From an uncultured bacterium (lineage in GTDB: Bacteria; Bacillota_I; Bacilli_A; RFN20; CAG-826), in assembly GCA_949297805.1 (NCBI GenBank), contig CASFTG010000001.1, forward strand, positions 186,001-250,000: DNA of 64,000 bases, read 5' to 3'. This document shows, piece after piece, positions 37,816-44,888 of the stretch. The notes beneath the pieces are model-generated. The model did not search any database and was not told the DNA's origin. It was given only the letters and a program-made list of their open reading frames with translations. The position numbers and the translations under genes were made by a program. Within the stretch, counting starts at the first letter, position 1. Every line of letters begins with the position of its first letter.

Positions 37816-37891
37816 GGGACTTTAGCTCAGTTGGGAGAGCGCGTGCTTTGCAAGCATGAGGTCGTCGGTTCGAGCCCGATAAGTTCCACCA
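37816..37891 (+). tRNA. tRNA-Ala (UGC)
   Basis: A 76-base cloverleaf: acceptor GGGACTT pairs with AAGTTCC and includes the alanine identity pair G3-U70. Anticodon TGC is at 37849-37851, the T-arm has GGTTCGAGCC, and the CCA tail is encoded. Confidence 0.97.
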
Positions 37892-37896
37892 GAAAT

Positions 37897-37973
37897 GGCT
37901 GTGTAGCCCAGTTGGTTAGAGCAACCGGCTCATACCCGGTATGTCGAGGGTTCGAGTCCCCCCACAGCCACCA
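37897..37973 (+). tRNA. tRNA-Met (CAU)
   Basis: A 77-base cloverleaf with acceptor GGCTGTG pairing CACAGCC, anticodon stem ACCGG/CCGGT and anticodon CAT at 37931-37933; CCA is encoded. The overall sequence fits elongator Met. A lysidine-type Ile(CAU) cannot be fully ruled out, but the tRNA-Ile(UAU) further on makes that less needed. Confidence 0.92.
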
Positions 37974-38600: not shown

Positions 38601-38858
38601 TTCGTTTACCCCCGCGAAGCAAAGCTTCGCATTTAATCAACGGCTTTGGTTTATCGACCTGATTATCTTAGGGGCGACTTTCCCTTTTTTCAATCGCTAT
38701 TCCCTATTCTGTTACGTGACATTCCTATTGCAACACCCCGCCATTTTTCGGACTCCGCCGGAATCCTAGTATGATGTAACGGCCTTCCAAGCCGCCCCGC
38801 CTTGCCAAAGGAGGTTGAAAAACACAATGGGAAAGAAGAAAGGAAAGGGGACGGGGAA

Positions 38859-39149
38859 ATGGAGGACATGGGCTTTGAAATGGAGAAGATAAGGCAAGGC
38901 GTTTATACATTATCTGAACCTATGAAGCAACTTGAAGCTGACTTAAGAAATCATGTTCTAAATTACAATAACAATCCAATTATTAAATGGTGTCTAGCCA
39001 ATACCCAAGCCAAGGTAGATGTGAACGGAAATATCCAACCATCAAAGCTAAACTCAAGGCTAAAAAGAATAGATGGAACAGTAGCTACGATTATTGCTTA
39101 TGCAACGCTTACTAGGTATAAGTTAGATTATGAAAGTATGACAAAATAA
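38859..39149 (+). pseudogene. Phage terminase large subunit, C-terminal fragment
   Basis: About 96 residues; from RQGVYTLSEPMKQLEADL on, the sequence matches the end of HK97-type terminase large subunits, with NNPIIKWCLANTQ, KVDVNGNIQPSKL and KRIDGTVATIIAYATLTRY of the nuclease domain. The ATPase half is missing. The join with host DNA lies around 38860-38885, where base composition drops sharply to AT-rich. This is the left edge of a degraded prophage. Confidence 0.8.
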
Positions 39150-39170
39150 CACGATATTTATCGAAAATTC

Positions 39171-39197
39171 TTGACTTCGTCGGGGGGGGGTTACAAT
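39171..39197 (+). promoter_or_regulatory. Promoter with a G9 tract in its spacer (candidate phase-variable promoter)
   Basis: TTGACT (39171-39176) and TACAAT (39192-39197) are separated by 15 bases, nine of which are one uninterrupted G run (39182-39190). The surroundings are strongly AT-rich, so the run is not composition. Two added G would give the optimal 17-base spacer. The same design controls Neisseria porA. The gene driven is a surface lipoprotein. Confidence 0.65.
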
Positions 39198-39214
39198 TTA
39201 AATGGGTGAATTTT

Positions 39215-41188
39215 ATGATTAAAAAAATTTTATTTCTTATGTCGATAATGTTCATATCGATTGGCTTATGTAGTTGTTCATCTAACGTTAGTAATGAAAG
39301 TAGCGATGACATTACAAATGGCTCAAATAATAATACTAGTGAAGATAATGATTCTAATGATGATGTCGATGTGAAAGAGTGGAATTCAGTTAGAGATTTA
39401 TATTTTGGGTACGGTATTAAAAAGAATGATATAAATAATTTCTTTATTAAGAATGGCACAAAAGTTAATGATTTAATTCATATAGATGATGAATATTATT
39501 CATATCGAAAAGTTAATACAACTATCATCTATGGAATAAATAATGGCTCTTTTAACATATCTAATACATTTACTGATAGTCAACTTAAAGATGTAGAAGT
39601 GACTAACGCTTTTGGGGTTACGAAGATTATCAAAGCTACTGTTTATACCGAATATGTTACTTCGATTAGCGTTAATTACTATGATTCCATGGATAAAGCA
39701 GTTTTTGGAGCATCTTATAATGGGGCTATTATTGACTCTAATATTGAAATTCTTGATGCACAATCAGGAACTTATAATTACTTCATAAGTACAATTGGTG
39801 ATGGCTATATTTTGCCTAGTTATAGTGATGTTGATGTTCGTAAGGTTGAGTCAACCTTTAATATTGATTCAAGTGTTCCATCAATTTGTTATTCATTTTT
39901 AAAAACGAGTATGAGTTTATTTAATGATGTTGTAAAAGAAATAGGGACTAATTATTCGGTTACTTCTTTATATAATGAGAATGATTGGAATAATATTAAT
40001 TGGGATACGGTTCAATTCACAAATAAAGAGGTTGTTTATGATGGTGAGACCCATTCTTTATATGCAGCTAATGTTCCGGATGGAGTTAAGGTAAGCTATA
40101 GTGAAAAAGAACTTTCAAGCCCAGGAGAACATATAGTTGAAGCAACATTTTATGATCCTAAGGGCAGAAAAATAGGGAGTAAAACTGCAATTTTATTTAT
40201 TAACGATGAGTTTGATATTAGCTTTAAGTTTTATTATGGAGATAATTTGTTAAGTGAAAAAACATTACCAGCTCATTATGGTGAAGATTTGATTAGTATT
40301 GCTGATGAATATGTACCAGATGGATATATAATTGCTAATGATAATTTGGAATGGGCAGTAATTGGAGATCAAAATATAGAAGTGGATTTAATGGGAGACC
40401 ACGAAGGATATTTGAAAATTTTAAGTGACACTAATACTGAATTAAACGGCAAGTATTTATCTTATGAGCTCATCGATTATTCTTATACGGTTAGTGAAAA
40501 TCAAATTATTAGTATGACACCATATGGAGAAAATCAACCTATTGAATTCTTCCTTGACGAAATAACAGGTATTGAGTTTTGCAATTCATTGTATATTTAT
40601 AGTGATTTTCTTTATAAAACCTCTAAGTTAAGTAATCTAGAGACTGTAAATATTTCAAATATGAAGTATTTAACTGAAATTCCTGATGGGTTCTTTTATG
40701 GTTGTAAAAACTTAAAAACCATAATAGGGCATAATTTAAAACAATTAACTAGTATAGGAGATAGGTTCCTTCAAAATACTGATATTGTTACTTTTGATTT
40801 AGATTTAACAAATGTTACTAAGATAGGAAAAAGTTTTCTTCGTGATGCTTTAACTGGAGCAGATTATAGAGAAATTACAATTGATATACCATCACTTCAA
40901 TCAATTGGTGGAACAAAAAGTGGTCAAATAATAGATTATGAAGGTGAAGTTAACTTCCTATATTTCTTATATCAATCTAAGCGAAATGATAATTGTATTG
41001 TTAATTTGAAAATGTATGACTTTTTGTTAACTAATACTATGTTTAAATCTTATCATGGTGTTTGGGATGACAATGATTTGCAGTATTATTCATTTGTAAA
41101 TTTAAATGTGTACACTAATAAATTAAGTTCACAAGAAAGATTGCTAGCAGATTTGCCAGGCATAGTGAATATTTATAAATTGTCATAA
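39215..41188 (+). CDS. Surface lipoprotein with BspA-like leucine-rich repeats
   Basis: About 657 residues. The signal MIKKILFLMSIMFISIGL leads to a lipobox (LCSC), then a linker of N, S and D. The centre (about residues 275-310) has a Big_3/MBG-like segment (NKEVVYDGETHSLYAANVPD, EHIVEATFYDPKG). Residues 470-570 carry BspA/LRR_5-like repeats: NLETVNISNMKYLTEIPDGF, FYGCKNLKTI, LTSIGDRFLQNTDIVTFD. Such proteins bind host or bacterial surfaces. It lies between terminase and portal fragments and has phage-like AT content, so it looks like cargo carried by the prophage. ATG 39215 has GGGTGA ahead. Confidence 0.8.
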   Translation: MIKKILFLMSIMFISIGLCSCSSNVSNESSDDITNGSNNNTSEDNDSNDDVDVKEWNSVRDLYFGYGIKKNDINNFFIKNGTKVNDLIHIDDEYYSYRKVNTTIIYGINNGSFNISNTFTDSQLKDVEVTNAFGVTKIIKATVYTEYVTSISVNYYDSMDKAVFGASYNGAIIDSNIEILDAQSGTYNYFISTIGDGYILPSYSDVDVRKVESTFNIDSSVPSICYSFLKTSMSLFNDVVKEIGTNYSVTSLYNENDWNNINWDTVQFTNKEVVYDGETHSLYAANVPDGVKVSYSEKELSSPGEHIVEATFYDPKGRKIGSKTAILFINDEFDISFKFYYGDNLLSEKTLPAHYGEDLISIADEYVPDGYIIANDNLEWAVIGDQNIEVDLMGDHEGYLKILSDTNTELNGKYLSYELIDYSYTVSENQIISMTPYGENQPIEFFLDEITGIEFCNSLYIYSDFLYKTSKLSNLETVNISNMKYLTEIPDGFFYGCKNLKTIIGHNLKQLTSIGDRFLQNTDIVTFDLDLTNVTKIGKSFLRDALTGADYREITIDIPSLQSIGGTKSGQIIDYEGEVNFLYFLYQSKRNDNCIVNLKMYDFLLTNTMFKSYHGVWDDNDLQYYSFVNLNVYTNKLSSQERLLADLPGIVNIYKLS

Positions 41189-41211
41189 TTATTCTGAATA
41201 TATGTATGTTT

Positions 41212-41235
41212 GAGCTCTTAATTGGGCTCTTTTCT
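41212..41235 (+). terminator. Weak terminator after the LRR lipoprotein gene
   Basis: GAGCTC (41212-41217) can pair with GGGCTC (41224-41229) over a short loop, followed by TTTTCTTTT. It separates the lipoprotein from the portal gene. Confidence 0.45.
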
Positions 41236-41269
41236 TTTGCTCAATTTTAGAAAAAGGAGGAGTTTTAAT

Positions 41270-42148
41270 GTGATTTTTAAAAGAAAAAAGAAGAAATTAG
41301 AAAATTTTAATGCTTTAGGTTTGATTAATGATATCGCTCTTCCTTTGACACCATTTGGAGAGAAGATAACTAATTCAGATGTAGTTCTAATATGTATTGA
41401 TAGGATAGCAAGTCAATGCGCAAAGCTTAAAGGAAGATGTATTAAAAGAAGTGAAGATGGAATTATTACGGAGAGGAACAAACACCTCTCTTTTTTATTG
41501 AAGTCAAAGCCAAATGAATACATGACGCCTTATCAGTTTATTTATAAGGTGGTTTCATTACTGTTACTTAATGATAATGCCTTTGTTTATCCTCTTTATG
41601 ATAGAGAAACACTAGAGCTTAAAGCGTTATATCCACTTAATCCTATTATTGTAGAACCAATCGTGGATAAGTCTGAAACCTATTATTTGAAGTTCTACTT
41701 TGAAAGTGGTGAGTCATTTATTCTTCCTAAAGAAAACGTGATTCATTTAAGAAGGTTCTATACAGGTAACGACATCTTTGGAGGAAGCGGAAGTAAATCA
41801 AGTCATGAAGCCTTACTTAAAACACTAGGAATAAATGATGCTTTACTTCAAGGAGTAGAGAAGGCAGTTTTTAGTTTATTTCAAATTAAAGGCATCCTAA
41901 AACTTAATGGTCTATTAAAAGAGGAAGATAGGAACAAGGCGGTCGAGGCTTTCAATAGGGCGCTTGAAGGCTCAAGCAAGAACAAATCCTCAATCGTTCC
42001 TATGGACCTGAAAAGCGAATATCAATCGTTATCTTTAGATCCAAAATTAGTAACTTATGACACTAGCTACTTTTTAAAGTTTTTTCTCGCTCTAACAATT
42101 GTTGATTTGCTTATTCCAGTTATATTAACTACTTCGCTATACGAATGA
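41270..42148 (+). pseudogene. Phage portal protein (HK97 type), 3'-truncated
   Basis: An AAAGGAGG site precedes GTG 41270. The product (SDVVLICIDRIASQCAKLKG, FIYKVVSLLLLNDNAFVYP, NVIHLRRFYTGNDIFGGSGS, LQGVEKAVFSLFQIKGILKL) is an HK97-family portal up to about residue 265, which includes KSEYQSLSLDPKLVTYD. After about 42060 the sequence becomes the reverse strand of the serine recombinase gene, so the last 30 residues are unrelated and the usual C-terminal 100+ residues are lost. The portal forms the DNA gate of the capsid; this copy cannot work. Confidence 0.82.
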
Positions 42149-42634
42149 TGTGAAAGAAGTTCAACAGCTATTTCTAGCTCCTCATCGCTATATTTTTTGG
42201 ACGGCCTTCTTTAAAATCTTTTCTTAATCTTGCTAACTCCTTACCTGTTTGTGTTCTTTCGACGATCATGTTTCTTTTTAATTCGGCAACTGCAAGCATA
42301 GTTGTTAAGAAAAATCTGCCCATCGGGGTGTCTTCTAATAACCTGATATTCAAAATATGTATAGCAATTTGCTTGCTAAATAATTGTTCTACAACTTTTA
42401 TTCCCTCAACAGTATTTCTAGCAAACCTATCAAGTTTTGAAACTACTAGAATGTCTCCGGTCGTTAAATTATCTATTAGTTTTTTGAAGATAGGTCTGTC
42501 CAATTTTGTACCAGTATATTGTTCGTCAAAAATGAGTGCAGTAGGGTATTTGCTTAAAATATCATTTTTTGGACTTCTAAACCATAACCATCAACTTGTT
42601 TTCTAGTGCTTACTCTTACGTATCCATAAATCAT
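42067..42634 (-). pseudogene. Serine recombinase (resolvase/invertase family) with two single-base losses
   Basis: Read from ATG 42634 (AGGTGG upstream) the protein begins MIYGYVRVSTRKQVDGYGL, with the catalytic Ser in RVS. At a CCAAAAAAT tract near 42568 one A is missing. Adding it gives KNDILSKYPTALIFDEQYTG, then the middle segment LVVSKLDRFARNTVEGIKVV and MLAVAELKRNMIVERTQTGK. A second identical CCAAAAAAT tract near 42195 again lacks one A; adding it gives KYSDEELEIAVELL and the C-terminal HTH VVNITGISKSTIVRARKNF. Both repairs give exactly 570 bases, 189 residues plus stop. The 3' end lies inside the truncated portal, so this element's arrival broke that gene. Confidence 0.82.
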
Positions 42635-43017
42635 TTTTCCACCTCAATTTTCTAAAATAAACATTTTTAAAATTAGCCAAAAATATTGTTTCTTGACGCA
42701 TTGCTGAAATTTCTAAAAATAAAAGACAATCGCAGAAAGCTAACTGGTTATTAATTATTACATATGAAACTTTCGTTAGAGCCGTTGCAGAAGCATCAGT
42801 ATTATAAGTTTTTGAAAAGGAAAGTATTAAGTATCTTGCTTATAACACATTAAGTTTAGAACTACTTTATATCCAAAATACAAACTGAAGTAAAATTCTC
42901 ATAGCTCACTAATTCATAGTAAACCCACCCGTTTTCACGATAAAATATTCGAGTATATTTTGATGTATTTCATTAATCGAACTTTGATTTGATTCGTTTT
43001 CAGGAGGTGTTGTCGTA
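42635..43017. other. AT-rich stretch without a recognisable gene
   Basis: Only a short open stretch (about 42703-42810, reading NKRQSQKANWLLIITYETFV) is visible and it lacks a start and ribosome site. An AGGAGG at 43002-43007 belongs to the next gene. Probably decayed phage or insertion DNA. Confidence 0.5.
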
Positions 43018-44219
43018 GTGTATAAATATAATTCGTTCAAAGAGTACATCCAGCTCAATTATATTGAAACCATACAAGACGCCCTCGGACAATATATCAA
43101 GCAAAACGATTTGACAATTTTCGATGAAGATACAGGCAATAGCCATACATACGAAGATTTTAATATCAGCACGATTAGGGTAACGACCGTCCATTACACC
43201 AAGAACAAAAAGGACAATGTCGAATTCGAAATTCACTTCAAAGCTGAATATATAGTATGCGACAATGTTTTAGATGGCGATAGTGATTGGCCGCCTTTCA
43301 TAGAAAAATCCGGGTATTTCATTTTTGACATGAAGGGCTCTTTTAAAAAGGGGTTTGTGCCTAAAGGGAAAGACGATGTAAAGAAGGTAGACGAAGAGCC
43401 TGAAAAGATATCAAACAGCTTGGTTCCTATCATTTCGAGGGATGAAATGGATAACTATGCTACTAAGTTTTTAAGGAATTTTGTCCCGAGGCTCTCGAAA
43501 AACCTACGAAGCTCGATGTTGCCAATATGCTTGCTAGCAAAGGAGTAAAAGTTTATTACGCTCCATTAGAAGACAATGTATTTGGTAAGACATATTTTGC
43601 TAAAGATACGGCAGAAGTATATAAAGGCGATAATCTTTTGGATTTTATCAATGGCGAAACCGAGAGAATAGAAGTGGAGCCAGGAACCGTACTAATTAAT
43701 TTCGATGCGGTAGTCGAACGTCCCATAGGCGTTTATAGAAATACGATGATTCATGAAGCTATTCATTGGTTCTTTCATAGTAACTACTTTGAGCTTCAGC
43801 AACTATTGGACGATGACCTTAAGTGCGCCGTCTGCTACTATGGCGAATCTTATTATCCAAATAGTGAAATTGCATGGATGGAATGGCAGGCTAGGTCCAT
43901 CGCGCCTCGCGTTTTAATGCCAAAGAAAACGGCGATTATAAAATGGAACGAAATCCTAGAAAGCATAAAGGAAAAGGATGAAACTAACGAACTAACGAAA
44001 TTCCAAATCTACGAGAAGGCTTTAGATAAGTTTTCTAAGTTTTTCGGAGTGACTTTGACATCTGCAAGAATAAGGCTCCAAGAGCTAGGTATTACCGAGA
44101 TTGAAGGTGTTAAAAATTATGTCGACGGAGCATATGTAAAACCCTTCTTCTATAAAAAAGGCGCGCTAAAGAGGAATCAAAGTTTCGTTATAGCGTCCGA
44201 TCAATTAGCCCGATTATAG
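43018..44219 (+). pseudogene. ImmA/IrrE-like metallopeptidase with one single-base loss
   Basis: GTG 43018 follows a strong AGGAGG. The first 160 residues (unknown domain, NSFKEYIQLNYIETIQDAL) read to YATKFLRN. There TTTT (near 43483) would need a fifth T to continue as FCPEALEKPTKLDVANML into the second frame. That part holds the zinc site MIHEAIHWFFH (HExxH) and the third ligand region EIAWMEWQARSIAPRVLMP, the ImmA/IrrE pattern; such proteases cleave repressors to switch on mobile elements or stress genes. Repaired length is 400 residues. No cognate XRE repressor is adjacent. If the loss is a sequencing error the gene is intact. Confidence 0.75.
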
Positions 44220-44713: not shown

Positions 44714-44790
44714 GGTCCATTAGCTCAGCCGGTTAGAGCGAGCGCCTTATAAGCGCTAGGTCCGGTGTTCAAGCCACCGATGGACCACCA
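44714..44790 (+). tRNA. tRNA-Ile (UAU)
   Basis: A 77-base cloverleaf: GGTCCAT pairs perfectly with ATGGACC; D-stem GCTC/GAGC; anticodon stem AGCGC/GCGCT around loop CTTATAA, giving anticodon TAT at 44748-44750; T-stem CGGTG/CACCG; encoded CCA. The anticodon reads AUA directly. Most bacteria use a lysidine-modified CAU tRNA for this codon, so the UAU form is uncommon. Confidence 0.93.
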
Positions 44791-44796
44791 ATAGAC

Positions 44797-44888
44797 GGAG
44801 GCGTACCCAAGCGGCTGAAGGGGTCGGTCTTGAAAACCGATAGTGGGGTTCCACCCCAGCCAGAGTTCGAATCTCTGCGCCTCCGCCA
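44797..44888 (+). tRNA. tRNA-Ser (UGA)
   Basis: A 92-base class II tRNA: GGAGGCG pairs with CGCCTCC, anticodon stem TCGGT/ACCGA with TGA at 44831-44833, a long variable arm (GTGGGGTTCCACCCCAGC), T-arm GAGTTCGAATC, and encoded CCA. Confidence 0.96.

Follow-up and report, generated by a model that had tools for sequence, protein, structure and literature searches.

A run of nine G residues between the -35-like and -10-like hexamers of a putative surface lipoprotein gene probably works like promoter-spacer phase variation, here of a gene carried by a phage. The locus lies in a 64,000-nucleotide stretch of DNA from an uncultured bacterium, hereafter the window, and its features are collected in Table 1. 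An earlier sequence-only reading had described a TTGACT/G9/TACAAT layout with nine G among the 15 nt that separate the hexamers, and this was found to be exact when the coordinates were read again; the AT-rich setting that it had reported agrees with the base composition. A single T separates the tract from TACAAT. The tract is the sole G run of eight or more in the window, and the sole other G7 is found within a coding gene. The promoter, with the mononucleotide tract between its -35 and -10 hexamers, is predicted by consensus match. The leader would be very short, only about 11 nt, because transcription is predicted to start near 39203-39205, and a leader of this length counts against the promoter-spacer phase-variation reading.

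Table 1. Features in and around the G9 promoter (window coordinates)
Feature	Position	Strand	Basis or remark
tRNA-Ala/tRNA-Met	37816-37973		flanks the AT-rich island
Terminase large subunit (terL) 3' fragment, endonuclease domain C-terminus	38856..39149	+	PF20441 E 1.3e-9; phrog_2699 E 2.5e-23
AT-rich island	38900..43500		base composition, ~30% G+C vs ~50% around
-35-like hexamer TTGACT	39171..39176	+	direct reading; TTGACT/TTGACA also there in related promoters
TCGTC, between -35-like hexamer and G9	39177-39181	+	direct reading
G9 homopolymer within spacer 39177-39191, proposed slippage switch	39182..39190	+	direct reading; homologous phage-slot promoters have G7/G8/G9
-10-like hexamer TACAAT	39192..39197	+	0-3 nt 3' of the tract is the rule for such promoters
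Shine-Dalgarno-like GGGTGA	39204..39209	+	direct reading
Cargo gene, 657-aa probable surface lipoprotein	39215..41188	+	N-terminal signal with LCSC; weak LRR match at residues 473-512
Phage portal gene, 3'-truncated, homology to ~42085	41270..42148	+	PF04860 E 8e-34
Serine recombinase (resolvase/invertase) N-terminal domain fragment, adjoins the broken portal	42174..42503	-	PF00239 E 4e-22; phrog_125 E 4e-31
tRNA-Ile/tRNA-Ser	44714-44888		flanks the AT-rich island

According to the explanation that we favour, the G9 tract would be a slippable spacer in a sigma-70-type promoter. Replication slippage would lead to gain or loss of G, the distance between -35 and -10 would shift, and sigma-factor contact and transcription would change with it. 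For the window gene, G9 would give a weak spacing of 15 nt, G10 one of 16 and G11 one of 17, and the promoter as assembled would be in the weak state. Tract length would set the expression of the gene, and switching would presumably be reversible, frequent and adaptive. The gene itself would have been brought in by a temperate phage as cargo (a 'moron') between terL and portal, with its own tract promoter, and would have stayed intact while the surrounding prophage decayed. The locus would also be one of a multi-locus repertoire across the bacterial family.

Promoters of this build were looked for in the genome from which the window comes (G000), where 1.43 of 1.65 Mb were scanned for G runs. 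A -10-like hexamer was defined as TAnnnT with at least 4/6 matches to TATAAT, lying 0-3 nt downstream of the G run on the same strand. Such a hexamer followed 7/9 intergenic G runs of seven or more but only 88/1066 (8%) runs of G4-G6 (Fisher 1e-6 over 1.43 Mb), and the association between G tract and -10 is not due to chance. Besides the window promoter, the genome has seven or more promoter-like sites built in this way, and most of these precede genes for exported proteins. Lipoprotein genes stand behind the tracts at C1:562922 and C1:832215 and as the second gene after that at C4:16500, which has a -10-like hexamer and no clear -35. A G11 tract at C2:286475 precedes a type IV pilin-like pair, small membrane proteins are encoded downstream of C1:276090 and C3:78621, and a short repeat protein downstream of C4:15174. 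In the sister species G030, the promoter of the pilin gene carries the same TATAAT without any tract where the window's genome has G11. This speaks in favour of the tract being part of a true promoter spacer.

The same held beyond this genome, so that what had been presented as a single locus became a family-wide class. The full motif, TTGA-N5-10-G7+-TAnnnT, was found at 71 distinct sites in 52/224 genomes of the family, covering 17/35 genera, and the reversed pattern used as a control was found at 2. In the order sample the motif occurred in 53/155 genomes (control hits, 4), and in the phylum sample many sites were found in some genomes from other families within the class, and none in most genomes. 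Using a crude classifier, in which a product was called exported if it had an N-terminal signal, an N-terminal TM segment or a lipobox, 39 of the 61 family sites with a downstream gene preceded an exported product, compared to 294/1156 (25%) genes of a background taken from the window's genome only (P ~1e-9). The spacers of the tract promoters span 12-21 nt, while ordinary intergenic promoter-like pairs in the window's genome peak at 16-18. Such a spread would be seen if the assemblies had captured a mix of stronger and weaker states.

Differences in tract length were found at other loci, all lengths being consensus values of metagenome assemblies. Of the species available, G024 is the nearest to G000; over long stretches the two mostly share 85-97% identity. 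The tract at G000:C1:276090 is G8 versus G6 in G024, and this is the sole indel in a 380-bp alignment that is 92% identical, and the flanks agree over about 20 nt on the upstream side and 10 nt on the downstream side. The compared regions of the two genomes contain 197 G/C runs of five or more, of which this tract gave the sole genuine pure length change, and no genuine change was found in the runs of 5-6 elsewhere. A second length change counted among the 197 runs proved to be an alignment artefact. Within single genomes, three tandem secreted paralogues of G292 carry G9/G11/G10 with near-identical flanks, the four separately placed copies of a repeated sequence in G566 carry G9/G7/G9/G8 with identical near flanks, and nine promoters of G508, at least eight of them belonging to one secreted-protein type, carry G9, G10 or G11 with near-identical flanks. 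Between species, orthologous tracts measured G10/G9 in G159/G167 and G9/G8 in G207/G209, and promoters of GGRPQY repeat proteins had G7, G8 and G10; some orthologue pairs were equal in length (G8/G8). In these alignments, variation in tract length with little change in the flanks is the pattern that slippage produces.

The G-rich spacer might instead be a fixed promoter element upstream of the -10, acting through DNA shape or as the site of a regulator or alternative sigma factor, with homopolymers as its commonest form and slippage as a by-product. We regard this as unlikely, and it was retained because interrupted tracts exist. G-rich spacers of similar total length with interruptions occur at the same position (GGGTGGGGG, GGCGGGGG, GGGGGTGGGG and GGAGGGGG); the spacer GGGGGTGGGG at G000:C4:61054 is identical in G024, the tract at C1:832215 is G8 in G000 versus GGCGGGGG in G024, and the phage-slot promoters of G201, G203 and G002 are likewise interrupted. 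Such tracts may be locked descendants of pure ones, or G-richness itself may matter. However, perfect tracts exceeded the reversed control about 35-fold, whereas GGGHGGGG, the one interruption position covered, did so about 2-fold (27 vs 12), and because of this difference the homopolymer is favoured as the selected feature. In addition, the distance from -35 to -10 varies, unlike that of a protein-bound site, and tract length changes without changes in the flanks. The claim of a promoter-spacer switch has accordingly been strengthened by the architecture, the orientation, the exported genes and the lengths that differ at other loci, and qualified by the interrupted G-rich spacers, which leave room for a non-switching role.

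One pair of orthologous promoters combines both forms. At G000:C3:70682 the spacer is GGGTGGGGG, at G024:C7:86811 it is the pure G9 of GGGGGGGGG, and the former has a T inside a tract of equal total length; the two are a possible pair of locked and slippable promoters.

The cargo gene starts at the ATG at 39215, with the GTG at 39206 as a possible alternative. The N-terminus of its product, MIKKILFLMSIMFISIGLCSC, has a charged start and a hydrophobic core, followed by the lipobox LCSC, and this signal sequence is lipoprotein-like. The lipobox is non-canonical, as a cysteine two residues ahead of the modified cysteine is unusual. The protein had been described as a lipoprotein with LRR and Ig-like segments; the lipoprotein part finds support in the signal, and the domain claims are weaker than stated because, in Pfam, the LRR_8 match reached 17.9 bits, below the cut-off of 27, and no Ig family was matched. 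A single-sequence structure model was uninformative (pLDDT 37). No homologue of the protein was found in its own genome besides a weak LRR match, and no relatives of it were found in IMG/VR.

The neighbours of the gene, a fragment of terL on one side and a truncated portal gene on the other, mark it as cargo of a decayed prophage. The left edge of the phage-derived DNA was set at 38856, where homology to phage contigs starts, and the portal protein is 94% identical to those of two IMG/VR contigs, L195 and L196. The proposal that the gene is phage-borne is backed by its position between terL and portal and by the homologous tract promoters of that slot, and limited by the state of the phage, a remnant in which both of these genes are broken. 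Further to the right (43018-44219), two adjacent frames (176 and 230 aa) align to successive parts of the phage protein family phrog_4031, and this gene looks frameshifted; the second frame also has a weak match to IrrE/M78-like metalloproteases. It could be argued that the promoter class is real elsewhere and that the window copy is an unexpressed relic, since terL and portal are broken, a recombinase fragment adjoins the portal and a 15-nt spacer predicts weak activity at G9. We consider this highly improbable, as the 657-codon frame, unlike its phage neighbours, is undamaged, and so are its promoter and ribosome-binding sequence. The remaining alternative, in which intergenic G runs arise by mutation and are tolerated while homopolymer consensus errors create the length differences, is disfavoured and hardly credible: all data do come from metagenome assemblies and G7-G8 runs also occur within some coding genes, but the tracts stand directly before the -10, on one strand, before exported genes and in genomes of about half of the genera, without any excess in the reversed control, and the runs of 5-6 elsewhere lack genuine length changes with respect to G024.

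The place between terL and portal was then compared among related phages. In L195 and L196 the order terL, cargo, portal is kept, and the cargo differs from that of the window; in L196 it is a membrane protein whose C-terminus is SHOCT-like (26.4 bits, slightly below the Pfam cut-off). The slot promoter of L196 reads CATTTTATCGAAATTCTTGACTTTTGTCGA-G7-TAAACT versus ATATTTATCGAAAATTCTTGACTTCGTC-G9-TTACAAT in the window, and from this alignment the two look like one promoter with different tract lengths. With the terL tail and the promoter as query, the slot was also found in other genomes of the family. It has tract promoters in G051 (G9, and G8 in a paralogous copy), G087 (G8) and G095 (G7), interrupted tracts in the three genomes named above, and no tract in L195, G035, G214 and G206, while terL is joined directly to portal, with no cargo, in G140, G185, G114 and G189. 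As far as these genomes and contigs go, the slot often, not always, has a G-tract promoter. The cargo differs among L195, L196, G051, G087 and G095. Morons are extra genes between conserved phage genes that are absent or replaced in related phages, and this is what was found here; a promoter of its own is predicted for the window cargo gene. Searches of IMG/VR gave no relatives of the G051 cargo lipoprotein or of the G087 cargo either, and thus no two near-identical phages that differ in their tracts; the L196 cargo matched only itself. L196 was also the sole true match to the DNA pattern of the slot promoter in IMG/VR. The chances seem to us about even that a lineage of temperate phages of uncultured Bacilli has a slot between terL and portal with a slippable G promoter, that lysogens express the surface protein stochastically from it and that this forms one arm of the family-wide repertoire, which would diversify the bacterial surface.

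Phase variation by slippage is known best from pathogens, among them Neisseria, Campylobacter and Mycoplasma. For CwpV of Clostridioides difficile, the switch is a site-specific DNA inversion rather than slippage of a tract, and the protein is not known to be phage-borne. Among systems to which the locus can be likened, in meningococcal porA, fetA and opc a homopolymer lies between -10 and -35, and these genes share with the window gene a G/C homopolymer in the promoter spacer of a surface-protein gene whose length sets the spacing (PMC2791445). They differ in that organism and genes are unrelated, and in that the tract here abuts the -10, belongs to a class of promoters found across this family of Bacilli and, in the window, stands before phage cargo. 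Promoters of vlp in Mycoplasma hyorhinis vary in a poly-A tract and that of vmm in M. mycoides in a promoter-spacer repeat; like the genes discussed here, both concern surface lipoproteins whose promoter region contains a slippable repeat, and vlp is a multi-gene repertoire (PMC10502178). Unlike in vlp and vmm, the repeat is of G, not of A or a dinucleotide, and the genes are dispersed and of many families; the likeness drawn here is one of promoters. CwpV resembles the proposed system in being a phase-variable surface protein of a Gram-positive gut bacterium, and it gives protection against phage (PMC4737114). The window gene is like phage morons and lysogenic conversion genes as an extra gene, with a predicted promoter of its own, between terL and portal, where the cargo varies by phage, and unlike known morons in that the cargo promoter appears to have a slippable G tract. 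A literature search of limited coverage found no description of a moron slot with such a promoter, and no report of phase variation in RF39 or the source lineage was found in the open-access literature.

Poly-G promoters appear to be a widespread class in uncultured members of the class Bacilli, before genes for lipoproteins, pilin-like proteins, secreted repeat proteins and at least one restriction-type helicase. If they do work as switches, the expression of surface genes, and perhaps of defence genes, would be heterogeneous by design in these Bacilli, which would bear on phage susceptibility and on the comparison of strains. In a phage that delivers a surface gene with a built-in switch, lysogenic conversion and phase variation would come together.

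Several further observations were made in the genomes examined. In the two related species G207 (L172) and G209 (L175), a gene for a PLD-like protein with a ResIII/DEAD helicase, possibly involved in defence, lies behind tract promoters of G9 and G8, respectively. In G508 (L281-L286), nine near-identical promoters of the form TTGAC..G9-G11..TAGTTAT..TATAAT, spread over five contigs, stand before members of a secreted-protein family, and this set resembles a variable-antigen family. In the small genome G407 (L289-L291), from another family, tracts of G13 to G21 directly follow TTGAC and precede lipoprotein-like and membrane-protein genes. The terL genes of G051 and G087 (L182, L132), which belong to different genera, are broken in different ways and are immediately preceded by a shared stretch of about 60-70 nt, AAAAATAGTCAAAAATACCTCAAAAAGTTCGAACCACCGCAATACGCACACCGCAATAGCACTTCGG, possibly the end of another mobile element. 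Outside the window, another lipoprotein gene (G000:C1:769108-770898, minus strand) has a C8 run at 770791-770798 in its N-terminal coding part; a frameshift would follow if a single base were added or removed there, making this run a candidate translational switch.
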